Source: Hyphomicrobiaceae bacterium
GTDB taxonomy: Bacteria > Pseudomonadota > Alphaproteobacteria > Rhizobiales > HXMU1428-3
NCBI GenBank assembly: GCA_028285025.1
Contig: JANQQH010000362.1
Location: forward strand, 1-14,317
DNA: 14,317 nucleotides
Direction: 5' to 3'
A program made the position numbers and the translations under genes. Positions 521 to 13,841 of this stretch are shown in pieces; position 1 is the stretch's first letter; each line of letters starts with the position of its first letter. The notes beneath the pieces are model-generated. The model was not told the DNA's origin, did no database searches, and saw nothing but the letters and a program-made list of their open reading frames with translations.

Positions 521-931
521 ATGACCCATTCACCAGAGCTAGAAATCTACATTTGCGGCGTCTGCCGCCCGAAAAACGCTGACAGTGACGACCCAAGGCG
601 TCCCGGACGCGATTTAATGAAAAAGTTAAAATCCAAGCTGGAAGAACAGGGTCTAGAAGAGCGTTTTGCCTTGAAAATGATGCAATGTATGAGCGTGTGC
701 AAACGCCCCGCCACCATAACGATCGTCAGTCCCGGCAAGTTCACGTTTACTGTGGGTGATTTGGATCCAGAGACCACAGCCAATGATATCATCACCTTTG
801 CCAAACTCTATGCTGCCAGCCAAGACGGCATCCCAGACTGGAGCGACCGACCTGAATGTATCCGCCAAGGCATCATCGCCCGCACCCCACCCTTTAATGC
901 CATCCATCAACGGGTGAAGGATGTCGGATAA
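521..931 (+). CDS. DUF1636 family cysteine-motif protein, cobalamin-neighbourhood
   Basis: A 136-residue cytoplasmic protein without signal peptide or membrane segment. It opens with EIYICGVCRPKN and carries a CX2C pair (C12, C15) and a later CX3C pair (C56, C60). This is the pattern of the DUF1636 family, small thioredoxin-fold ferredoxin-like proteins that may hold a [2Fe-2S] cluster. Family members are frequently encoded beside cobalamin biosynthesis or transport genes in alphaproteobacteria, and here it is divergent from cobD and close to cobB-cobK-cobL. The biochemical role is not established, so no reaction is assigned. The start ATG has only a weak purine stretch (AAGAGA) before it. 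It converges with the AraC gene 57 bp downstream. A decayed second copy of its 3' end lies at 2789-2915. Family assignment is fairly sure; the iron-sulfur and cobalamin link is inferred. Confidence 0.85.
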   Translation: MTHSPELEIYICGVCRPKNADSDDPRRPGRDLMKKLKSKLEEQGLEERFALKMMQCMSVCKRPATITIVSPGKFTFTVGDLDPETTANDIITFAKLYAASQDGIPDWSDRPECIRQGIIARTPPFNAIHQRVKDVG

Positions 932-2788: not shown

Positions 2789-2915
2789 ATCTTCACCTTT
2801 GCCAAATTTTATGCGGCCAGCCAAAATAGCATTCCACAGTGGAGCAACATCCACCAAGATGTTAGCCCACCCCGCCTTTAATACGGTTCATCAGCGAGTG
2901 AAAGGTGTCTGTTAA
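2789..2915 (+). pseudogene. Decayed 3' remnant of a second DUF1636 gene
   Basis: This stretch aligns with 788-931, the 3' end of the intact DUF1636 gene. Over 2789-2845 about 47 of 57 bases match, and the reading is IFTFAKFYAASQNSIPQWSN against IITFAKLYAASQDGIPDWSD. After a region shortened by deletions, the match resumes in another frame as HPAFNTVHQRVKGVC-stop against TPPFNAIHQRVKDVG-stop. The remnant is 127 bp against 144 bp, a difference not divisible by three, so there is a frameshift. The 5' two thirds of the gene, with both cysteine pairs, is not recognisable upstream. It is therefore a broken paralogue and cannot make a DUF1636 protein. Similarity may reach back weakly to about 2773. 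Confidence 0.85.
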
Positions 2916-5975: not shown

Positions 5976-7214
5976 ATGACAGATACCACAAACACACCCT
6001 GGCTCACCATCATTGGTCTCACCCCAAACGGCCATGCTGGCTTGTCTTTTCATGCACAAGCTCTCATACACGCCGCCCGCTTACTCATTGGCAGCAAGCG
6101 CCAATTAGACCTGATCCCTGAAACGGCTTCGCCTGCCTCAAGAGAACAATGGCCAAGTCCAATACAACCTCGACTGGAAAGCCTAACATCTGAAAAACCC
6201 CAAAGCACAGTTATCCTTGCCACAGGCGATCCCTATTGTTGGGGCATTGCTGAATACTTTGCAAAACACCTCCCCGCAAATCAAATGCAAACCATTCCAG
6301 CCCCTTCCATTATCTCACTCATTTGCGCAAAAATGCGCTGGCCAAGCGCAACAACCCAAAGCCTATCTTTATGCAGCCAACCCATTGAGAGCCTGGCCCG
6401 CTTGTTAGAACCAGGCAAAAACATAATCACTCTTTCCGCCAAGGGCGACCATCCAAACCAAATAGCCAAATATCTAATCGATAACGGTTATAAAAATTCA
6501 ACCATAACCGTGCTTGAAAATTTAGGCTCTGATCAAGAAGCCATCACCCAAACAACCCCTGAAAAACTACTAGATGCAAAACCGTTCTGCGCTCTAAACA
6601 GTCTAGCCATTACGCTAACAACACACCCAACAGTCCAGCGCCTAACCACGTCACCTGGCTTACCCGACAGCGCCTTTGAACATGATGGCCAGCTGACCAA
6701 ACAAAATATGCGCGCCATCACCTTAGCTCACCTGCGTCCCTCTTATGGGGAATGTTTGTGGGACATTGGCTGTGGCAATGGCTCAATCAGCATTGAATGG
6801 CTCCGTGCTGCCCAAAACACCCACGCCATCGCCATTGAGCAAAACCCCCAAAGAGCGGCCCGCACCAAAATCAACGCAAAAAAATTAGGCGTGCCTCATC
6901 TAGAATTAATAGAAGGTCAAGCCCCTGACTGTTTGAAAAATTTAAAAACCCCAGACGCCATCTTCATAGGCGGCGGCATCTCAACCCCAAATCTACTAGA
7001 AACCGCCCTCAAAGCATTGAATCCAAATGGCCGCCTGGTGGCAAATACTGTAACCCTAGAAGGCCAAGCCCAACTGCTCCACGCTCACCAAACCCATGGC
7101 GGCGCTCTTACACAGCTTTCAATAGAACAAGCTGACCCCGTCGGCACCTTCCACGGCTGGCGCCCGCAAATGCCCATAAGCCAATGGGTCTATCAAAAAC
7201 ATAATGAAGTTTAG
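5976..7214 (+). CDS. cobL: Precorrin-6B (6Y) C5,15-methyltransferase, decarboxylating, CobL
   Basis: CobL methylates C5 and C15 of precorrin-6B with SAM and decarboxylates the C12 acetate, giving precorrin-8x. The 412-residue protein is a fusion of two domains. Residues about 10-200 are CbiE-like tetrapyrrole methylase (WLTIIGLTPNGHAGLS near the start, ATGDPYCWGIAEYF in the middle). Residues about 225-400 are CbiT-like (GQLTKQNMRAITLAHLRP, SAM-binding LWDIGCGNGSISIEWL at about 260-275, then DAIFIGGGIS). This fused form is usual in aerobic-pathway bacteria. No clear Shine-Dalgarno sequence precedes the ATG, but WLTIIG begins only nine codons in, so the start fits the family. It follows cobK by 58 bp, a gap with a T8 run but no convincing hairpin. 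A long palindrome begins 10 bp after the stop codon. Confidence 0.95.
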   Translation: MTDTTNTPWLTIIGLTPNGHAGLSFHAQALIHAARLLIGSKRQLDLIPETASPASREQWPSPIQPRLESLTSEKPQSTVILATGDPYCWGIAEYFAKHLPANQMQTIPAPSIISLICAKMRWPSATTQSLSLCSQPIESLARLLEPGKNIITLSAKGDHPNQIAKYLIDNGYKNSTITVLENLGSDQEAITQTTPEKLLDAKPFCALNSLAITLTTHPTVQRLTTSPGLPDSAFEHDGQLTKQNMRAITLAHLRPSYGECLWDIGCGNGSISIEWLRAAQNTHAIAIEQNPQRAARTKINAKKLGVPHLELIEGQAPDCLKNLKTPDAIFIGGGISTPNLLETALKALNPNGRLVANTVTLEGQAQLLHAHQTHGGALTQLSIEQADPVGTFHGWRPQMPISQWVYQKHNEV

Positions 7215-7224
7215 AGCCTAGTTC

Positions 7225-7348
7225 GTGCCTTAATTTCCATGGTTAGACTTTGGCATTTTGAAATCGCTTGTCAAGGATTTCACTTGCGCTCCGCGTCCTT
7301 GACAAGCGATTTCAAAATGCCAAAGTCTAACCATGGAAATTAAGGCAC
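7225..7348. repeat. Long palindromic repeat, copy 1 (53-bp perfect arms)
   Basis: Left arm 7225-7277 and right arm 7296-7348 are perfect reverse complements over 53 bp, beginning GTGCCTTAATTTCCATGG and ending TTGTCAAGGA at the inner side. The 18-nt centre holds a mini-hairpin GCG-CTC-CGC (7286-7294). It lies between the convergent cobL and HemY_N genes, 10 bp after one stop codon and 18 bp before the other, and could act as a two-way transcription block or mRNA-end stabiliser. It has no coding capacity and no adjacent target duplication. A related but diverged copy is at 13701-13820, so it is a repeat family and not a single terminator. Perfect arms suggest recent origin or active homogenisation. 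Confidence 0.95.
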
Positions 7349-7366
7349 CCCTCAGGCATACGCGAT

Positions 7367-9055
7367 CTAATACCTTACAGGTCGCATACCCTTTATCGTT
7401 CCTGTATCATCACCATCAGTATCAATCCCCGGGTCATCTGGCGCAGGAGGAGCCACATAAATCTTCGCCCGCTTACGCCGACGTTTTTTCTTTGGTATAT
7501 TTTCTTCTTTTTCGTTTTTTTCACGCGCCGCCTCTTTACTTTGCGGCTCGTCCTTTTCAGGCTCAATTATCTCCGGCTCAACAACCTCAACCGGTTCAGC
7601 CTCTGCTTTGCTCTCTTCCTCTGGCTCTTCAGCTGTTTCAACCACCACAGGCAATTGCTCGTCATACGCGTCTTCAAAAGGCTCTTGCGGCTCCTTTGCC
7701 TCATCCAAAGCCTCAGCGGTTAACAAACCAGCAATCATATGTTTTAGCGTTACACTGTCATCTCTTGCCATCTCATCTTGGTCTGGCACCTTCCATTCAA
7801 AAGCATCCAACCGACCAGAAATTGGCGAAACCGGTGCCCAGTCATCAAACACTGTCCCATCAGCCACCCATTGCAGATCAGGTGGTGCAGAAACAGCACG
7901 GGCCAACCATTCACGTATCACCCCTTTGTTGCCAGTCTCTTGCGTCTCAATCCGTGCCATTAAGGTGCACACCTTCTGACTTGGCCGCCCACGCACCAAA
8001 GGCCCCAAGCTTTCACGCGCCAAAGTCCAATCTTGTGCTTCAACTGCTGCTTGCGCTACAGCCATTGCCGCCTCTTTATGACCCGGCGTTAAACTGGCCA
8101 AAGATTGGATCCGGGTTAAACGATCACGCACACTATCACCAGGACGTGCAAAGGCGCTCACCATCGCCAAATCTGGATGCGGTGCTAGTTTCCAACATTT
8201 GCGCACAATCTTTAACGCATTGGTCATGTGCGATTTGCTGGCATTGATCCGCCCGGCAATCACAGCCGCTGGAATTAAGCCTGGCGCCAACCTCACCGCT
8301 TCCATTGCATAGCCCAAAGCCTCATCTATCCGGCTGTCTTCAAGCTCTTGCGCCAAAGCAGTTAACAACACCGCCCGCTGTCGCTTGGCCTTTTTGGCCT
8401 CAAGATGTCCCTGAACTTGGGCAATTTTAAGCGTCTCTAGGGCCTGGGCCCAAGCTGAGCGCTTGCACTGCAAATCAAACAACCCCATCACAGCCCATTG
8501 CAAATCGCCGCGCCGTTTGACCGCTCTGGCCACATATTGTTCAGCCGCCACAAATTCCTTTTGCTCCAGCGCCAACAAATATAGCCCGCGCAGTCCCATA
8601 ATTTCGGTGTCAGAGGCGGCCAACATGCTTTCATAAATCCGTGTAGCCTGGCCCGTATCACCCTTTAATTGCGCGGCTTGCGCCCGCAGCATTTGCGTCA
8701 TCGGATCATTTGGCAAGGCTTTGCGCGCCTGATCAGCCAAACGATGAGCTTTACTTTTATCCCCTGCCCCAATGGCAATCAGCCCACTGCTTAAAGCGGC
8801 CAAGCCTTTTTCCTGTTTTTTACGGCTAAAATAACGCGACAAAGCGCCAGGGGAGGTCAAAATCATCCGAAACAAAGACCAGCCCAACATTACCAGCAAA
8901 ACAAGTGCTGCAAACACTATCACTGCCTGCATGAGTGTTGGTTGAATTTCTCCTCCTGGCCATTGGATGATCAATTTACCATCCATATCCGCCACCAGCG
9001 ACAATCCAAAGGAAAGCACGCCAATAATTAAAATGAAAAAGAATATCCGAAACAT
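7367..9055 (-). CDS. hemY: HemY N-terminal-domain / TPR membrane protein
   Basis: This is the proteobacterial HemY_N family, an inner-membrane protein with TPR repeats that is encoded with heme genes. It is not the protoporphyrinogen oxidase that shares the name. Its exact role in heme synthesis is unclear. Of 562 residues, two membrane helices lie at about 1-22 and 42-64 with a short loop between them (DMDGKLIIQWPGG). The family pattern SRKKQEKGLAALSSGLIAIG follows, then helical TPR-like repeats to about residue 430. The C-terminus is a long acidic Glu/Pro-rich tail, then the basic cluster KKKRRRKRAK (522-531) and APPAPDDPGID, an ending frequently seen in alphaproteobacterial members. The start is 59 bp after the mitofilin-like stop, and both are probably on one transcript. 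The ribosome binding site is weak. The stop lies 18 bp from the palindromic repeat. Confidence 0.9.
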   Translation of the reverse strand: MFRIFFFILIIGVLSFGLSLVADMDGKLIIQWPGGEIQPTLMQAVIVFAALVLLVMLGWSLFRMILTSPGALSRYFSRKKQEKGLAALSSGLIAIGAGDKSKAHRLADQARKALPNDPMTQMLRAQAAQLKGDTGQATRIYESMLAASDTEIMGLRGLYLLALEQKEFVAAEQYVARAVKRRGDLQWAVMGLFDLQCKRSAWAQALETLKIAQVQGHLEAKKAKRQRAVLLTALAQELEDSRIDEALGYAMEAVRLAPGLIPAAVIAGRINASKSHMTNALKIVRKCWKLAPHPDLAMVSAFARPGDSVRDRLTRIQSLASLTPGHKEAAMAVAQAAVEAQDWTLARESLGPLVRGRPSQKVCTLMARIETQETGNKGVIREWLARAVSAPPDLQWVADGTVFDDWAPVSPISGRLDAFEWKVPDQDEMARDDSVTLKHMIAGLLTAEALDEAKEPQEPFEDAYDEQLPVVVETAEEPEEESKAEAEPVEVVEPEIIEPEKDEPQSKEAAREKNEKEENIPKKKRRRKRAKIYVAPPAPDDPGIDTDGDDTGTIKGMRPVRY

Positions 9056-9114
9056 CTAACCCAACACCCTTAAATTACCGACAATACCCATTGCAAAGAC
9101 CCCAGCCTTACCAG

Positions 9115-10593
9115 CTAGTCTTGCCTGGGTTGCAGCGAGGTTAACAATTGATCCTCTAATTTATGCATCGCTTGTTCAACCAAAAGCCTTGCTTTTAATT
9201 TGGTAAGCCAAGGGGCAATCACCTGTTGCGCCTTTGGCTGCAATTGGCTGGCCTCGCTTACCACCTGTTCTAAATGACCCTGTTTAAATTTATGTTCCAT
9301 ACGGGCCAGCACCGCCTCACTGCTATCACCTTTCACATCACCTGTACGCCGATAACGAAACGTGCTGCGCGCTTTTTGCGTAAGCTTATCCCAGGTTGTT
9401 GTAGACTCAACAGCGGTCTCATCAGCAATCGCTTTGCTGGCCAAAGCCGGAAACGCCTCCATCAAGCTTTGCTCACTGGTAAGCCCCTCATGGGACAATT
9501 GTTCCAACAAACTAAAATCTCGGGCCAAAGCGGATTGCTCTCCCGACAAACGCTTAACAGCTTCCAGTTCATTTGAAAATCCGCTGCCTTGTTCCATTGC
9601 ACGCTTTAAGTTGGCAAAGGCCAAGGCCAAAGCACTACGACGAGCCGTTTCATGCGCATCTTGTTCTAATTTTTTTAAACGACCCATTTGCGCATCAATC
9701 TCGGTGATTTGCGCTTTTAAGCCTTGCACTTGCGCTTCCAAAACATCTTTAGAAACACTGCCCGAACGAACTCCCTCAACAGAACCGCGCAATTGCTCAA
9801 AATTAGAAACGAATTGATTTGAGCGCGCCTCCAGCCTAGCCAAACGTTTGCCAAGTTCATCAGCTGTTAGCTTCACACCCTCAATTTGCACCAAAGATTC
9901 TTGAGCGGCAACAATCTTAGAAAGCTTGGTCACTTCCTGGCGCAATTCATTTGAAAAGCTATTCTTCACATCTGTTAACTGTTGATCAAGCCGGGCTTCA
10001 ATACCGTTCATTTTTGTTGCCAGAGCGGCCACCCCTTCAATGCGCTCATCACCAGCCTCAGCCGTCTTTGCCACATCAGCCAGCAAAGCGTCCATTTTAT
10101 CTAACCGCTCGAGCACACCTTGAGCACTTTGTCCATTATCAACTTTTTCTTGCAACGCGGCCATCTGTTGAGACAATTCATCAGCCCCGGTTGACTCTAT
10201 CAAAGTCTCCAATCCTAAAATTTTTTCAGTCAAGCTCTCAAGGGTTAGCTTGTCTTGATCATGAGTGACCAATTTCGGCATAAATTGCTGGCCGCCCAGT
10301 GCCAACACAGCGCCAATGACACCAGCCGCCAAAGTTTTGATAAAAGATCCCCCACCAGAGCTTTGTTTTTTTGCCACAACTTGGGTTTCTTCTGATTTCA
10401 CATCTTCTTTTTTAACTGTTTTTTCCTGTTTTGGATCTTTTTGCTCAGTATCTTTTGATTTGGAACCAGAGCTCTTTTTCTCAGATTCTTCAGGGCCTTT
10501 AGAGGCCTTTTTTACTTCTTCAGCCTCAAGATCAAGTGTCTGAGCTGGCCGTTTGGAAGATTTTGTATCTTGATTGTCAGTGCGCCGTGCCAT
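9115..10593 (-). CDS. Mitofilin/Mic60-like inner-membrane protein (COG4223)
   Basis: The alphaproteobacterial relative of mitochondrial Mic60, linked to inner-membrane architecture and usually encoded between hemD and hemY, as here. From ATG 10593 it has 492 residues. Residues 1-80 are a charged, low-complexity Lys/Glu/Ser segment, cytoplasmic by topology. One membrane helix lies at about 84-104 (FIKTLAAGVIGAVLALGGQQ). A long periplasmic coiled coil covers about 115-340 (heptad-rich, for example LDKMDALLADVAKTAEAGDE). The C-terminal part, from about 345, is the mitofilin-type helical region ending in QAMHKLEDQLLTSLQPRQD. TAGGAG stands 8 nt before ATG 10593. A GTG codon directly before it (10596) is a less well spaced alternative. 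A 195 bp gap separates it from hemD, so it may have its own promoter. Confidence 0.88.
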   Translation of the reverse strand: MARRTDNQDTKSSKRPAQTLDLEAEEVKKASKGPEESEKKSSGSKSKDTEQKDPKQEKTVKKEDVKSEETQVVAKKQSSGGGSFIKTLAAGVIGAVLALGGQQFMPKLVTHDQDKLTLESLTEKILGLETLIESTGADELSQQMAALQEKVDNGQSAQGVLERLDKMDALLADVAKTAEAGDERIEGVAALATKMNGIEARLDQQLTDVKNSFSNELRQEVTKLSKIVAAQESLVQIEGVKLTADELGKRLARLEARSNQFVSNFEQLRGSVEGVRSGSVSKDVLEAQVQGLKAQITEIDAQMGRLKKLEQDAHETARRSALALAFANLKRAMEQGSGFSNELEAVKRLSGEQSALARDFSLLEQLSHEGLTSEQSLMEAFPALASKAIADETAVESTTTWDKLTQKARSTFRYRRTGDVKGDSSEAVLARMEHKFKQGHLEQVVSEASQLQPKAQQVIAPWLTKLKARLLVEQAMHKLEDQLLTSLQPRQD

Positions 10594-10698
10594 CACCTAA
10601 ACTCCTACCCGCTAAAAAAACCCAAACAACAGCAAACAATGCCGCAAAACGAAGTACCATAATATCTACATAAGACCCCAAACCAAAAATACGACCAA

Positions 10699-10704
10699 AT
10701 TATA
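10699..10704 (-). promoter_or_regulatory. Candidate -10 element upstream of the Mic60-like gene
   Basis: Reading on the minus strand, TATAAT occurs within the 195 bp gap between hemD and the mitofilin-like gene, about 105 bp before that start codon. No TTGACA-like -35 box is found 16-18 bp upstream, so this rests on one hexamer in an AT-rich gap. The gap otherwise shows no ORF, strong hairpin or repeat. Confidence 0.2.
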
Positions 10705-10791
10705 AACCAAATGTCACCAACATATGAGATTTTCTATATTTTTTGCCATTGAACAGAAAAATATCTCTAAAATATAGCAAGTTAAAAATTT

Positions 10792-11511
10792 TCAGCGCTG
10801 TAATAATCCAATCAAAGCCTCTTGGCTGGGCTGAGGGGCTATAAAAATTTTTTCCTGCGGCACATCAATTAAGTGATCCGCCACAGCTTGAGACAGACAA
10901 AAATGCGTAAGGTTTTTCTTCACCCCCTCAAGCCTGGCCTTCCCCATGAACCTTTGATAGGCGCGGGCCGTGCGCGGCGACATTAAAACCACATCGCTTA
11001 TGGCCCCATTGACCAGTTGTGCTTTAAATTCAGTCGCCAAACCACCCACTTCATTCATGCGATAACTCACCACTTCAACAATTGATACATTTTCTGCGGC
11101 CAAAGCTTGCTTTAAATCAAATGCCAGATCCTCGCCGCGCCAAAAAAACAAAGGAGCCGTGCCCTCAAAGCTTTTCTTAATGAAAGGAACCAAACAAGCT
11201 GCCCCGCCCCCTTGTGTAACATCGGGAAACCGCACATCTTTAAACCCAAGCTCAAAGGCCATATTTGCCGTTGCAGACCCCACTGCAAACAAAGGCAAAT
11301 TCCACCAAGACTCTGGAAAGAGACTCGCAACAGCCCCTCTCAACCCATTGCGACTGGTCACGATTAAACCACCAACTTCGCGAACACCTGAATAATCAAT
11401 GGCAAGCAACTCCAACTCTAACAAAGGATAACAACAATAAGCCAGGCCCCGCTCAGACAAAGCCGTCGCCAAACGGCAAGCATCAGCCTGTGGCCTTGTG
11501 ATCCAAATCAT
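10792..11511 (-). CDS. hemD: Uroporphyrinogen-III synthase HemD
   Basis: HemD cyclises hydroxymethylbilane with inversion of ring D, giving uroporphyrinogen III, from which both heme and cobalamin are made. The 239-residue product has the family's usual length and two-lobed layout. The N-terminal ITRPQADACRLATAL is a HemD hallmark, then LIVTSRNGLRGAV, LFAVGSATANMAFELGF, and in the second lobe FFWRGEDLAFDL, VVSYRM and VLMSPRTARAYQRF. HemD sequences diverge greatly, but these motifs together with the place next to hemC make the call firm. The ATG lies 5 bp after the hemC stop, and the TAAGG around that stop can act as ribosome binding site, which indicates translational coupling. Nothing is broken. 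Confidence 0.95.
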   Translation of the reverse strand: MIWITRPQADACRLATALSERGLAYCCYPLLELELLAIDYSGVREVGGLIVTSRNGLRGAVASLFPESWWNLPLFAVGSATANMAFELGFKDVRFPDVTQGGGAACLVPFIKKSFEGTAPLFFWRGEDLAFDLKQALAAENVSIVEVVSYRMNEVGGLATEFKAQLVNGAISDVVLMSPRTARAYQRFMGKARLEGVKKNLTHFCLSQAVADHLIDVPQEKIFIAPQPSQEALIGLLQR

Positions 11512-11516
11512 ATGCC

Positions 11517-12449
11517 TTATACCATCGCTGCCATAAAATCAGGTCCTGCTCGGTCAATTAAAGTTTCGGCCAATAATATCCCAATCGCTTGCCCTTCACC
11601 AACAGATCCGGTTAAACGATCAGAAAATTCTTCAGACCCATCAGGCGCCAAAATTTGCCCCCGTAAGGAAAGACGGTCACCCTCCAGTTTCGCCAACGCA
11701 GCTATGGGTGTGCGGCAAGATCCATCAAGCCGTTTTAAAAACGCCCGCTCACACGACACAACTGTAAAACTTGTCTGGTCATTGAGCGGCGCCAACAAAG
11801 GTTCTACCCGCTCATCGCCGACCCGGCATTCAAGCCCAATCGCCCCTTGGGCAACAGCAGGCAACATCTCTTCAGGGTCAATTGCACAAGTAATATGATC
11901 TTTCATCCCCAACCTGTTCAACCCAGCTACCGCCAAAAAGGTCGCTGCCACTTCACCTCGTTCCAATTTTTCTAACCTTGTTTGCACAGAGCCGCGAAAC
12001 ATCACCACGTCTAAATCTGGACGCACCACTTTGATTTGCGCTTGTCGGCGCAAACTAGAAGTCCCCACTTTAGACCCTTGTGGTAAGCTCACTAAATCTG
12101 GCGCGACGAGACTTATAAACCCATCCCTAACATCTTCACGCGGCAACATAGCACGAATATGCAAACCATCAGGCAATTGGGTCTGTACATCTTTCATCGA
12201 ATGCACCGCCAAATCAATTCTGCCATCCAAAAGCGCTTCTTCAATCTCTTTAGTAAACAGCCCCTTGCCACCAAAGTCCCGCAGTGCTTTATCTTGAATT
12301 TGATCCCCTTGGGTTTTGATCACTTCAATCTTAATTTGTTCGTCTGCAAAACCATGCGCTGCCTTTAACCGATCTCGCGTCTCATACGCTTGCGCCAAAG
12401 CAAGCGGGCTGCCTCTTGTCCCAAGGATCAGCGGACCATCCATAATCAT
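11517..12449 (-). CDS. hemC: Porphobilinogen deaminase (hydroxymethylbilane synthase) HemC
   Basis: HemC joins four porphobilinogen units into hydroxymethylbilane using a dipyrromethane cofactor. The protein has 310 residues, the usual size. Motifs in order: LILGTRGSPLALAQ (7-20), KTQGDQIQDK (45-54), GGKGLFTKEIEEALL (60-74), AVHSMKDVQT with catalytic D87, VGTSSLRRQAQI (128-139), FRGSVQTRLEKL, LAVAGLNRLG, LPAVAQGAIGLEC, and LDGSCRTPIA with the cofactor-binding C245. GGGAG precedes the ATG at 12449, with a second ATG two codons on that is also usable. It is the first gene of hemC-hemD and is divergent from tsaD over 140 bp, where no convincing promoter or operator was recognised. Confidence 0.97.
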   Translation of the reverse strand: MIMDGPLILGTRGSPLALAQAYETRDRLKAAHGFADEQIKIEVIKTQGDQIQDKALRDFGGKGLFTKEIEEALLDGRIDLAVHSMKDVQTQLPDGLHIRAMLPREDVRDGFISLVAPDLVSLPQGSKVGTSSLRRQAQIKVVRPDLDVVMFRGSVQTRLEKLERGEVAATFLAVAGLNRLGMKDHITCAIDPEEMLPAVAQGAIGLECRVGDERVEPLLAPLNDQTSFTVVSCERAFLKRLDGSCRTPIAALAKLEGDRLSLRGQILAPDGSEEFSDRLTGSVGEGQAIGILLAETLIDRAGPDFMAAMV

Positions 12450-12589
12450 TTCACTCCCACATGATTTAATCCGTTATAAATCTTGTCTCTATCACAAAAT
12501 TTAAACCGCCCGATAGCCTTAAAACACTTTAAAGCCCTCAAGAAGCATAAAAAACTTGCGTCACCGCCCAACTTTGCTATGCCAAACCC

Positions 12590-13684
12590 ATGCAATCAAA
12601 AACCCTAACCCTTCTTGCCATTGAAACCAGCTGCGATGAAACCGCAGCCAGTGTTGTGCGCCGTCATGAAGATGGCACAGGCCAAATCGTATCCAACATT
12701 GTACGCAGCCAGTTAAAAGAACACGCAGCCTTTGGCGGTGTGGTGCCAGAAATTGCCGCCCGCGCACATATTGAAAACCTAGACACCCTCATCAAAGCCG
12801 CTTTAACAGACGCCAATATAACCTTAGATGACCTTAATGGCATTGGCGCCACAGCTGGCCCCGGCCTCATTGGCGGCCTTTTGGTAGGCATGATGACAGC
12901 TAAAGCAATCGCCGCGGTGAAAAAAATTCCCTTCATTGCCGTCAACCACCTTGAAGGTCACGCCCTGACCGTCGGCCTCACCCACAATCAAAAACCACCC
13001 TATTTGCTCCTGCTGGTCTCCGGCGGCCACACGCAGCTCATCTGGGTGCAAGACATTGGCCGCTACACCCGCATCGGCAGCACCATTGACGACGCTTTGG
13101 GCGAAGCGTTTGACAAAACCGCCAAACTTTTAGGCCTGGGCTATCCTGGCGGGCCTGAAGTTGAAAAATGGGCCCAAAATGGCGACCCGAACCGGTTCGA
13201 CTTGCCAAAACCTTTAAAAGCAAACAAACAGCCAAACTTTTCTTTTTCCGGTTTAAAAACCGCTTTGCGCCAAAAGGCACAAAAATGCGAACCCCTAAGC
13301 GAGCAAGACATAAAAGACCTATGCGCCTCTTTTCAGCGCGCTTTAATCACCAGCGTGATTGACCGGTTAGAACTAGGCATTAAAAACGTAAGCACCCGTT
13401 TTGCCCCTCAAAAAGCGTTTCCCATTGTCGTTGCCGGCGGCGTTGCTGCCAACAAATCATTGCGCGCAGAACTAGAACATCTAACACAAAAAGCAAACCA
13501 TCCCCTCATTATCCCGCCGTTTGACTTATGCACGGATAACGCAGCCATGATCGCCTGGGCCGCCGCTGAACATTTATCCCGTGGCCACCAAGACCCTTTA
13601 ACAACCCCTGCCAGATCCCGCTGGCCGTTGGACGAACAATCGACCCCGATCCTAGGTTCTGGCAAAGCAGGAGCTAAAGCTTAA
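12590..13684 (+). CDS. tsaD: tRNA N6-adenosine threonylcarbamoyltransferase TsaD
   Basis: TsaD transfers the threonylcarbamoyl group to A37 of ANN-decoding tRNAs (t6A), working with TsaB and TsaE in bacteria. The product is 364 residues. Motifs: AIETSCDETAASVV (10-23), the family signature around GGVVPEIAARAHIENL, the metal-binding NHLEGH (H120, H124), LLVSGGHTQL (141-150), the ATP-binding GSTIDDALGEAFDKTAKLLG and YPGGPEVE, SFSGLKTALRQ, VVAGGVAANKSLR, and the late PPFDLCTDNAAMIAWA. All expected ligands appear intact. No Shine-Dalgarno sequence is visible before the ATG, but the conserved AIETSCDET begins at the usual distance. It is divergent from hemC and upstream of gpsA, a layout common in alphaproteobacteria. 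A long palindrome begins 16 bp after its stop. Confidence 0.97.
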   Translation: MQSKTLTLLAIETSCDETAASVVRRHEDGTGQIVSNIVRSQLKEHAAFGGVVPEIAARAHIENLDTLIKAALTDANITLDDLNGIGATAGPGLIGGLLVGMMTAKAIAAVKKIPFIAVNHLEGHALTVGLTHNQKPPYLLLLVSGGHTQLIWVQDIGRYTRIGSTIDDALGEAFDKTAKLLGLGYPGGPEVEKWAQNGDPNRFDLPKPLKANKQPNFSFSGLKTALRQKAQKCEPLSEQDIKDLCASFQRALITSVIDRLELGIKNVSTRFAPQKAFPIVVAGGVAANKSLRAELEHLTQKANHPLIIPPFDLCTDNAAMIAWAAAEHLSRGHQDPLTTPARSRWPLDEQSTPILGSGKAGAKA

Positions 13685-13700
13685 AACTTCGCCAAACCAA

Positions 13701-13820
13701 GCCTTAATTGCCATGGTGAGATTTTTGCATTTTAAAAGTCCATGTCAAGGACGTGCAACGCTTCGTATATCCTTGACATGGACTTTTAAAATGCGAAAGT
13801 CTTATCATGGAATTTAAGGC
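13701..13820. repeat. Long palindromic repeat, copy 2
   Basis: Left arm 13701-13751 and right arm 13770-13820 pair over 51 positions with six non-Watson-Crick sites. The innermost 25 bp (13727-13751 with 13770-13794) are perfect. The 18-nt centre holds a mini-hairpin ACG-CTT-CGT (13758-13766). It shares GCCTTAATT, CCATGG, GCATTTT and TGTCAAGGA with copy 1 at 7225-7348, with the same arm and centre lengths. It starts 16 bp after the tsaD stop and ends 21 bp before the gpsA start, so it stands between two codirectional genes and may uncouple their expression. A second TTAAGGC (13825-13831) lies just outside the right arm. Confidence 0.93.
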
Positions 13821-13841
13821 GGACCTTAAGGCACAATATCT

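Follow-up and report, generated by a model that had tools for sequence, protein, structure and literature searches.

Two long palindromes lie between genes in the window, the whole 14,317-nt stretch of DNA analysed here (Table 1). The first separates a cobL-like gene from a convergent hemY, and the second lies between tsaD and a gene that we take, from its translation, to be gpsA. The near-equal geometry originally claimed for the two holds, with arms of 53 nt in copy 1 and 51 nt in copy 2 around centres that are 18 nt long in both, and with complementarities of 100% and 88%, respectively. In the inner 44 nt of copy 2 adjoining the core, the mismatches consist of four G.T and no A.C. The inner stems had been described as perfect; GAAATCGCT in copy 1 and AAAAGTCCA in copy 2 are indeed exactly matched in the opposite arm, although copy 2 is imperfect outside its inner stem. 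Folded as + strand RNA with short flanks, the copies reach -103.2 and -82.2 kcal/mol (z-scores of -18.8 and -14.7; 0 of 200 shuffles were equally low). A module farther out in the arm is symmetric in copy 1, because the right arm has the form of the left, and the arms of copy 2 carry TGAGATTTTTGC and GCGAAAGTCTTA, so that the asymmetric module has been kept there.

Table 1. Features of the two hairpin copies in the window and of their surroundings
Feature	Position	Strand	Basis or remark
Copy 1, cobL-like gene	stop 7214		Pfam TP_methylase
Copy 1, whole repeat unit (~144 bp)	7215-7358		perfect palindrome 7225-7348 plus flank conservation
Copy 1, module, left arm TTAGACTTTGGC	7243-7254	+	same form in right arm, 7319-7330
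Copy 1, hypervariable stem, left strand GAAATCGCT	7260-7268	+	partner 7305-7313; columns 39-47 of alignment A1
Copy 1, conserved core TGTCAAGGA	7269-7277	+	partner TCCTTGACA, 7296-7304
Copy 1, loop, 18 nt, mini-hairpin GCG-CTC-CGC	7278-7295	+	sequence
Copy 1, hypervariable stem, right strand AGCGATTTC	7305-7313	+	exact complement of 7260-7268
Copy 1, convergent hemY	7367-9055	-	Pfam HemY_N
Copy 2, tsaD	stop 13684	+	Pfam
Copy 2, whole repeat unit (~144 bp)	13689-13832		imperfect palindrome 13701-13820
Copy 2, module, T-rich arm TGAGATTTTTGC	13717-13728	+	opposite arm, 13793-13804, is GCGAAAGTCTTA
Copy 2, hypervariable stem, left strand AAAAGTCCA	13734-13742	+	partner 13779-13787
Copy 2, loop, 18 nt	13752-13769	+	sequence
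Copy 2, hypervariable stem, right strand TGGACTTTT	13779-13787	+	exact complement of 13734-13742
Copy 2, gpsA (presumed)	start 13842	+	named from its translation
Arm sequence of the hairpin repeat CCTTANNTTCCATGG

The existence of the two palindromes is thus confirmed, and they belong to something larger than was reported. The original prediction spoke of a two-copy family, which we reject: an intergenic hairpin with a unit of about 144 bp occupies 57 places in the genome from which the window comes (the host genome; 150 of 1565 candidates scored) and at least 81 in G054, a genome from another family of the order (150 of 1252 candidates scored, all 150 of which matched). The combined total for this one hairpin is at least 138 places. 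Of 150 genomes of the order, the remaining 148 yielded no copy apart from a decayed half-copy in G001, the closest congener; filtering was stricter in this search and 23 candidates were scored in each genome, so that weak or few copies could escape it. The seven congeners likewise yielded only this half-copy, and all seven are free of the element at both the tsaD-gpsA and the cobL-hemY site. The tsaD-gpsA spacer measures 157 bp in the host genome versus 10 bp in G001.

Placement was tabulated for 56 of the 57 host-genome places (the anchor pattern did not catch L002) and for 68 copies of the at least 81 places in G054. None of the copies examined in either genome (0/56 and 0/68) overlaps by more than 30 nt a gene predicted by our own hexamer scoring, which was used in place of a published gene finder. 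Host-genome copies sit close behind stop codons, the median distance beyond the extended element being 7 nt over 33 tandem spacers, and tandem copies in G054 lie far from genes (medians of 125.5 and 162.5 nt). Carriage by plasmids or phages was rejected, copy 1 having no blastn match in 72,556 plasmid records, which presumably included RIME-bearing replicons, or among phages. Two pattern matches on viral contigs contained no hairpin by eye.

It had been proposed that pairing is maintained in this family, whether through selection on structure or through correction of one arm by the other, and the further copies in two genomes support this. Neither a family confined to two copies nor additional copies with unpaired arms was found. 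Alignment A1 holds 43 of the 57 host-genome places (two were dropped by a de-duplication key, one at a contig end, one as divergent and ten as long-loop or late-found copies). Standard pairs fill 96.5% of its 2279 pair cells, and change is seen on both sides in 26 of 53 pairs; double-changed cells number 249 against a shuffled mean of 69, a count that 0 of 500 shuffles reached, and slid controls were at most 49.6% paired. The 68 G054 copies gave 98.9% of 2720 cells paired and 268 double-changed cells (shuffled mean 81). All of these differences are between dispersed copies, with one genome per species, and not along a lineage.

The hypervariable stem (A1 columns 39-47) takes 38 distinct left-arm 9-mers in 43 copies, with 382 of 387 cells Watson-Crick, and its counterpart in G054 takes 31 left-arm forms in 68 copies, with 404 of 408 cells Watson-Crick. 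Mismatch within a copy is 1.3% (5/387) in these columns versus a difference of 49.8% between copies, a ratio of 38; the same ratio is 5.7 in the outer variable columns 12-15, and the G054 helix is paired at 99.9% in its inner and 97.2% in its outer part. The concert between the arms is therefore strongest near the tip. Mismatched stems occur in 8 of 111 copies. One of these (L235) combines two stems that are both perfect elsewhere, and in four others one arm matches a stem that is perfect elsewhere.

The stem is enclosed by the blocks CCTTA, CATGG, GCATTTT and TGTCAAGG, which are fixed across the family, TGTCAAGG being almost invariant in alignments A1 and A2. The element is inverted across almost its whole length and so possesses the terminal inverted repeats of a MITE. 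Conservation in 106 pooled flanks decays about 13 nt outside CCTTA, and their profile reads GGC[CT]T[AG], three to four loose positions, mostly GTG or TCC, and CCTTA in that order, with no conserved GTAG at the ends. The ends in G054 are of an A-type containing CCGTCC and a B-type containing CCTGTCC; CGTC is thus present at one end at most, and not in the host genome.

In most copies the module differs between the two arms. Identical modules occur in both arms of 10 of 56 host-genome copies (a row in which neither arm gave a module was excluded, and in a few further rows one module is missing), in the forms GTTAGACTTTGGC (five copies) and GTGAGACTTTGGC, GTGAGATTTTTGC, ATAAGACTTTCGC, ATGAGATTTTTGC and GTAAGCTTTTTGC (one each); the symmetric form of copy 1 makes up five of these ten. 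The two module forms of G054 are far more dissimilar, and only 1 of 68 copies has identical ones. Module and ends are mostly linked in G054 (34:8). The strand of the T-rich arm is unbiased with respect to transcription, at 6:8 in the host genome and 16:15 in G054.

The loops bear on a further part of the original prediction, the covariation of a mini-hairpin at the tip. The two mini-hairpins, GCG-CTC-CGC and ACG-CTT-CGT, are present, and a tip stem of at least 3 bp is found in 41 of 43 host-genome loops (shuffled mean 29, maximum 37) and 68 of 68 G054 loops (shuffled mean 67). Because the G054 loops barely exceed their shuffled mean, covariation of the tip is at most faintly suggested, and because the loop type of copy 1 sits in both orientations, the two mini-hairpins may not occupy homologous positions. 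This type, CACTTGCGCT, is divided 5:5 relative to the asymmetric arms in the 10 classifiable host-genome copies, and the GGCTACCGC loop has a single relative orientation (0:4). Loop orientation in G054 is 37:22 with respect to the T-rich arm (9 of the 68 copies could not be classified), 22:20 relative to the ends (42 typed copies) and 26:16 relative to the module among 42 fully typed copies. Both orientations thus occur in G054 and for the CACTTGCGCT loop, as template switching would produce, although exchange between copies could also invert a loop. Given the 4/4 of the GGCTACCGC loop and the 26:16 in G054, inversion is not fully random.

Comparison with Rfam, which the original prediction had suggested, gave no match at gathering score in the window. 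A lax threshold on 7100-7450 returned only a miRNA and an lncRNA model, both far below gathering; lax matches in G054 were likewise miRNA/lncRNA models under gathering scores, and a known Rfam family was rejected on these grounds. Among the matches listed from open-licence PMC, no paper describes this repeat in its title or the start of its abstract. In being extragenic, palindromic and dispersed in many copies, the repeat resembles the REP, BIME and REPIN elements associated with RAYT (TnpA_REP), to which passages of PMC3116915 and PMC3733652 ascribe hundreds of copies per genome and a hairpin in ssDNA. It differs from them in its unit of about 144 bp (REP, ~20-60 bp), in the lack of a conserved terminal GTAG (or of CGTC at one end in the host genome) and in the hypervariable paired stem amid fixed blocks, and no Y1/RAYT gene was found in the host assembly. 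The Y1_Tnp model (PF01797) gave 0 matches there and, as a control, found matches in 5 of 14 well-known genomes; a RAYT-mobilised REP was rejected accordingly. Such a gene could be missing, since the completeness of the assembly is 90.38%. ERIC and NEMIS-type repeats, likened here by description, are also long palindromes between genes, about 100-130 bp in length, in different hosts. Also by description, the repeat is like Brucella Bru-RS1/RS2, which passages of PMC2267715 present as palindromic, intergenic, 103-118 bp long and in tens of copies or more, and like the RIME, Sm-repeats, and AB and C motifs of Sinorhizobium meliloti, intergenic and of conserved secondary structure in passages of PMC2573895. 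Palindromic repeats of Neisseria and Yersinia are mentioned as mRNA stability determinants in a passage of PMC2267715.

We propose, with a probability slightly above one half (about 0.53), that the family is a dispersed non-coding REP/MITE-like repeat whose stem is kept paired largely by arm-to-arm template copying. A miniature mobile element of ~144 bp would enter gene spacers via a putative mobilising enzyme, and CCTTA, CATGG, GCATTTT and TGTCAAGG would be its probable recognition blocks. The stem between them could change freely, both strands evolving together, if during replication the hairpin lets one arm template the other. The same copying process may sometimes homogenise the asymmetric module and flip the loop. 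We favour arm-to-arm copying because arm homogenisation and loop inversion are the published signature of template switching: passages of PMC8604942 describe both as its products between inverted-repeat arms, and passages of PMC8794818 name it as one origin of compensatory changes. The quasipalindrome correction treated in these papers shares with the present family its homogenised arms, inverted spacers and paired changes; events are inferred on phylogenies in the passages concerned, whereas dispersed copies are compared here with no phylogeny. Compensation with loop inversion is regarded in PMC8794818, in the part cited, as the strongest support for template switching, and as extremely rare in the RNA genes studied. 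In the present family, arm identity extends from the stems of both genomes to the identical modules of some copies. Copying would then be confined to part of the arm, with the asymmetry perhaps under selection, because identical modules are so rare in G054 and module and ends are linked there. Since the blocks are conserved in two families, a function is plausible. We infer transposition as the mode of mobility and template switching as the cause of the pairing; visual inspection of the flanks revealed no target-site duplication, and the congener spacers are too diverged to place the insertion point.

The main rival is selection on an RNA or ssDNA hairpin (needed to mobilise the element, process mRNA or bind a protein), which would remove or compensate one-arm mutations with no special copying. 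It is possible, if clearly the less probable account, and would agree with the fixed blocks and the stem that varies yet stays paired in two families of the order, the stable folds of both window copies, the near absence of identical modules in G054 and the composition of the host-genome stem, which to the eye looks A/T-rich toward the outside and G/C-rich toward the inside. Where perfect stems differ by a single pair, transitions are at least as common as transversions (6:3 in the host genome, 9:8 in G054), a pattern that is also expected from stepwise change through G.U and that counts against arm-to-arm copying. On the other hand, G.T intermediates in the stem are nearly nil (3/387 in the host genome, 2/408 in G054), though about half of the sites differ between host-genome copies, and two-thirds of the pairwise double differences in the A1 stem are of transversion type (2667 of 3915, with 1248 of transition type, counted over copy pairs and thus not as independent events). 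Nor does selection on one defined structure predict both loop orientations, seen for one host-genome loop type and for the G054 loops, and the unbiased strand of the T-rich arm disfavours a sense RNA with a defined asymmetry, which we rejected. The evidence leans toward correction. A bolder version, which we think rather unlikely, is that the element spreads by single-stranded fold-back copying via a novel mobiliser, the inner arm being re-synthesised from its partner in each round, so that the stem would drift yet stay perfect and the loop would often be re-oriented; the asymmetric module, conserved in two families, would then be a strand-recognition mark.

Cassettes of stem, core and loop might also be swapped between copies by homologous recombination at the palindromic conserved blocks, in either orientation. 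This would explain why G054 stems recur with different loops, modules and orientations (e.g. CAGCTGGT, in 12 copies) and why stem, module and end types are found in many combinations, but exchange only shuffles existing stems, and the 38 stems in 43 copies and 31 in 68 could not arise without arm copying or compensation. At about 10-20 nt, the shared blocks are, moreover, short for homologous recombination, and we consider exchange an unlikely explanation. That the hairpin is a gene-regulatory part, be it a bidirectional terminator, an mRNA-stabilising hairpin or an outward promoter, appears highly improbable. The core does contain TTGACA 16 nt from the end of TGC, with an A-rich stretch following, and copy 2 has two promoter-like matches where 0.2 are expected (the better, 10/12, at 13748-13721 on the - strand); host-genome copies lie close behind stops, and T-runs outside the element are found in 19 of 107 flanks there against 8 of 105 control stretches. 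However, copy 1 has no promoter-like site and neither window copy has a terminator-like one, for which reason the bidirectional terminator was rejected. The T-runs of G054 are at control level (12/132 flanks, 11/129 controls), its tandem copies are distant from genes, and the T-rich arm is biased toward the downstream gene in neither genome.

The family amounts to a natural experiment on how pairing is kept up in DNA hairpins. Paired changes in two arms are usually read as the mark of a selected structure, and template switching can give the same pattern by mutation alone; here at least 138 places combine a paired stem that is hypervariable with two loop orientations, and their asymmetric region serves as an internal control. 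A high covariation score of a dispersed bacterial repeat does not by itself prove a functional RNA. Besides full copies, the repeat also occurs as solo arms. The arms of copy 1 also contain GTTAGAC and GTCTAAC, in the order opposite to the R''/R' boxes that lie outermost in integron attC sites (RYYYAAC ... GTTRRRY).

The hairpin repeat to which both window palindromes belong (family 1) is present at 57 places in its own genome, and not in two copies as the original prediction had it. This count comes from a covariance model (R1) built from 43 own-genome copies, which gave 113 strand-level matches among the best 150 of 1565 candidates scored. DNA searches of the same genome returned 82 strand-level matches with copy 1 and 63 with copy 2, and the arm pattern CCTTAANTTCCATGG, with one mismatch allowed, occurred 54 times forward and 51 times in reverse (reversed control pattern, 0). 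Since conservation in 106 pooled end flanks dies away about 13 nt beyond CCTTA, we place the unit at about 144 bp. Both palindromes lie at their predicted positions (table), and as + strand RNA they fold at -103.2 kcal/mol (copy 1, z -18.8) and -82.2 kcal/mol (copy 2, z -14.7), with 0/200 shuffles equally low in either case. A further 18 stretches, fetched on account of extra arm or tip-module matches, were classed by reading: 12 are half-copies or carry internal deletions, three are truncated by a contig end, two have no arm match, and one looks like a chance match within coding sequence. Locus L142 retains only the outer arms, as a 24-nt mini-palindrome. One variant copy has the usual ends and core and a different middle (CAAACCAATTCGGCGATTTTTCATATGC); its gene row also contains a normal copy.

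Anatomy of family 1 from the outside inwards, and positions of the features discussed
Feature	Position	Description
Copy 1	window 7225-7348	53-nt arms, perfect match; 18-nt centre
Copy 2	window 13701-13820	51-nt arms, 88% complementary; 18-nt centre
Ends	outermost	two types
CCTTA block	next inward	CCTTA and 2-4 variable positions, mostly paired
CATGG	inward of CCTTA block	
Asymmetric module, own genome		one arm GTGAGATTTTTGC, other arm GTTAGACTTTGGC or ATAAGACTTTCGC
Asymmetric module, G054		GTGAGCGTTTTT and [AG]TGAGACACTG
GCATTTT	inward of module	
Hypervariable stem		9 pairs; in G054 6 highly variable
Core	inward of hypervariable stem	TGTCAAGG
Loop		about 18-30 nt
TTGACA to TGC, example	window 13748-13721 (-)	
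Variant copy	L028 1627-1762	normal copy at L028 850-976
Direct repeat, first copy	window 788-847	within ORF 521-931
Direct repeat, second copy	window 2789-2848	
GC-rich repeat	L141 ~640-800, L144 ~660-821	also cobL-hemY spacer of G002 (L164) and G004 (L163)
~40-nt repeat	own-genome (G000) loci L103-L129	inside family-1 copies L033 ~1505, L038 ~1316, L034 ~990, also L099, L100, L101
Third repeat	L104, L108, L115, L125	

Seven congeners searched with R1 yielded no family-1 copy. In G001, the congener nearest the window by TsaD (81% identity), a single 51-nt blastn match is, by reading, a decayed right half of the repeat, in a spacer upstream of what we take to be pheS. Among 150 genomes of the order, searched with stricter filters, family 1 was found in two from different families, its own and G054. 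All 150 strand matches scored in G054 were positive, giving at least 81 places. The G054 copies share CATGG, GCATTTT, TTGTCAAGG and the layout with those of the own genome; because their ends and loops are different, we do not regard them as cross-contamination. This distribution would reflect either shared ancestry with loss, or transfer. Neither window site is occupied by family 1 in any of the seven congeners. The tsaD stop lies 157 bp from the next ATG in the window vs 10 bp in G001; two congeners hold other repeats at the tsaD site, and the cobL-hemY spacer contains a different GC-rich repeat in two and several other repeats in one, so these spacers take up several kinds of repeat.

The pairing that the original prediction took to be maintained is evident in the alignments of both genomes. 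In the 43-copy own-genome alignment, 96.5% of 2279 cells hold standard pairs and 26 of 53 pairs have changed on both sides; the alignment of 68 G054 copies covers 40 pairs, and 98.9% of its 2720 cells pair (99.9% in the inner helix, 97.2% in the outer). Double-changed cells number 249 against a shuffled mean of 69 in the former (0/500 shuffles reach any of five measures) and 268 against 81 in the latter (no shuffle as high), although these shuffles disregard the relatedness of copies and could be exceeded on that account. Slid controls, which keep relatedness, pair no more than 49.6% and 49.7% of cells, respectively, with the caveat that a structure derived from the same sequences tends to beat slid versions regardless.

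This concert of the arms peaks in the tip-proximal stem and is weaker beyond the module, as the regional counts indicate. The own-genome hypervariable stem is mismatched in 5/387 cells (3 G.T, 0 A.C, 2 other), and its sites differ between copies in 49.8% of comparisons (ratio 38). For the outer variable columns 12-15 the corresponding figures are 11/172, 36.7% and 5.7, and for the module 119/473, 18.7% and 0.7. In G054, pairing holds in 404/408 cells of the six variable stem positions (2 G.T, 2 A.C), and the 68 copies show 31 distinct 8-mers; at three variable outer positions 174/198 cells pair (66/68 copies). A mismatched stem occurs in only 8 of 111 copies. Of the pairwise double differences in the own-genome stem, 2667/3915 are of transversion type (pairs of copies counted, not events); this two-thirds share is about the free-base expectation, unlike single G.U steps. 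Perfect stems one pair apart show transitions and transversions at 6:3 in the own genome and 9:8 in G054, which does not strongly favor either template switching or selection on structure, the latter having been one of the two explanations first offered.

We prefer template switching as the means by which the arms stay matched: one arm would template the other, homogenizing the arms and flipping the loop. This preference rests on the literature, which lists both arm homogenization and spacer inversion among the products of template switching within inverted repeats, from one arm to the other (PMC8604942). Compensation accompanied by an inverted loop is described there as the best support one could have, though extremely rare in that study's data (PMC8794818). 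Going from a population pattern to a mechanism is an inference. Measured against the T-rich arm, the G054 loops point one way in 37 copies and the other way in 22, with nine copies unclassified. The 42 copies typed in full split 22:20 when the loop is set against the ends and 26:16 when it is set against the module; module type and end type mostly go together (34:8). In the own genome, ten copies with the CACTTGCGCT loop and an asymmetric module divide 5:5 by orientation, and the count for the GGCTACCGC loop is 0:4. Both arms carry identical modules, parental and hybrid forms alike, in 10/56 own-genome copies, and in 1/68 from G054. Exchange of inner hairpins between copies is a less probable source of the pattern.

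Family 1 behaves like REP/MITE-type repeats, within which it is a new family; no Rfam entry matched it at gathering score. We do not file it under REPIN/RAYT, because its pooled flanks lack a GTAG end and no Y1 transposase gene was found in the own assembly. Its unusual features are the hypervariable paired stem, the conserved asymmetric module and the two loop orientations. Overlap of more than 30 nt with a predicted gene was seen in 0/56 own-genome and 0/68 G054 copies, so all those examined are intergenic. Copies that have a called gene no more than 600 nt away on each side lie in tandem, convergent and divergent spacers in 33, 10 and 4 cases (own genome) and 32, 12 and 8 (G054). In tandem spacers the T-rich arm shows no bias relative to transcription (6:8, p 0.79, and 16:15, p 1.0, respectively). 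T-runs outside the element occur in 19/107 vs 8/105 control stretches in the own genome, without excess in G054 (12/132 vs 11/129). No terminator-like site was found at copies 1 and 2, which have 0 and 2 promoter-like sites, respectively. We see no need to call for a host function, though one is possible.

In both genomes the core TTGACA and the end of a TGC that precedes an A-rich stretch are separated by 16 nt. The hypervariable stem is the spacer between them, and the spacing matches an extended -10 promoter; the hexamer after TGC makes a weak -10 in G054, and no promoter-like match was obtained at copy 1.

Other repeats were encountered along the way. A 60-nt direct repeat in the window is 82% identical between its copies, the second of which is possibly a gene remnant, since no + strand ORF of at least 80 aa is present there. 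A GC-rich intergenic repeat, by eye GAAGAAGGAGTG..GGACATGGCG..CGGAGGGC..AATAGCCCGTGAGA, twice stands immediately behind a family-1 left half and is also present in two congeners. The ~40-nt repeat TAGCGC-GGTTGCTGGTGGGC-ATCCAAAGCGCC has 27 exact core matches in the own genome (reversed control, 0), one of them (L124) in apparent coding sequence. It lies at the hairpin tip, or close to it, in several family-1 copies, and also inside two further repeat families, at times as tandem units. By appearance it is a small repeat that enters the tips of hairpins; the similar GGTTGCTGGTAGGC is present in congeners G002 and G006. A third repeat, AAAAGTGN..ACCGGTTT, has the 40-nt module beside or within its hairpin and presumably resembles a repeat widespread in Hyphomicrobiales.
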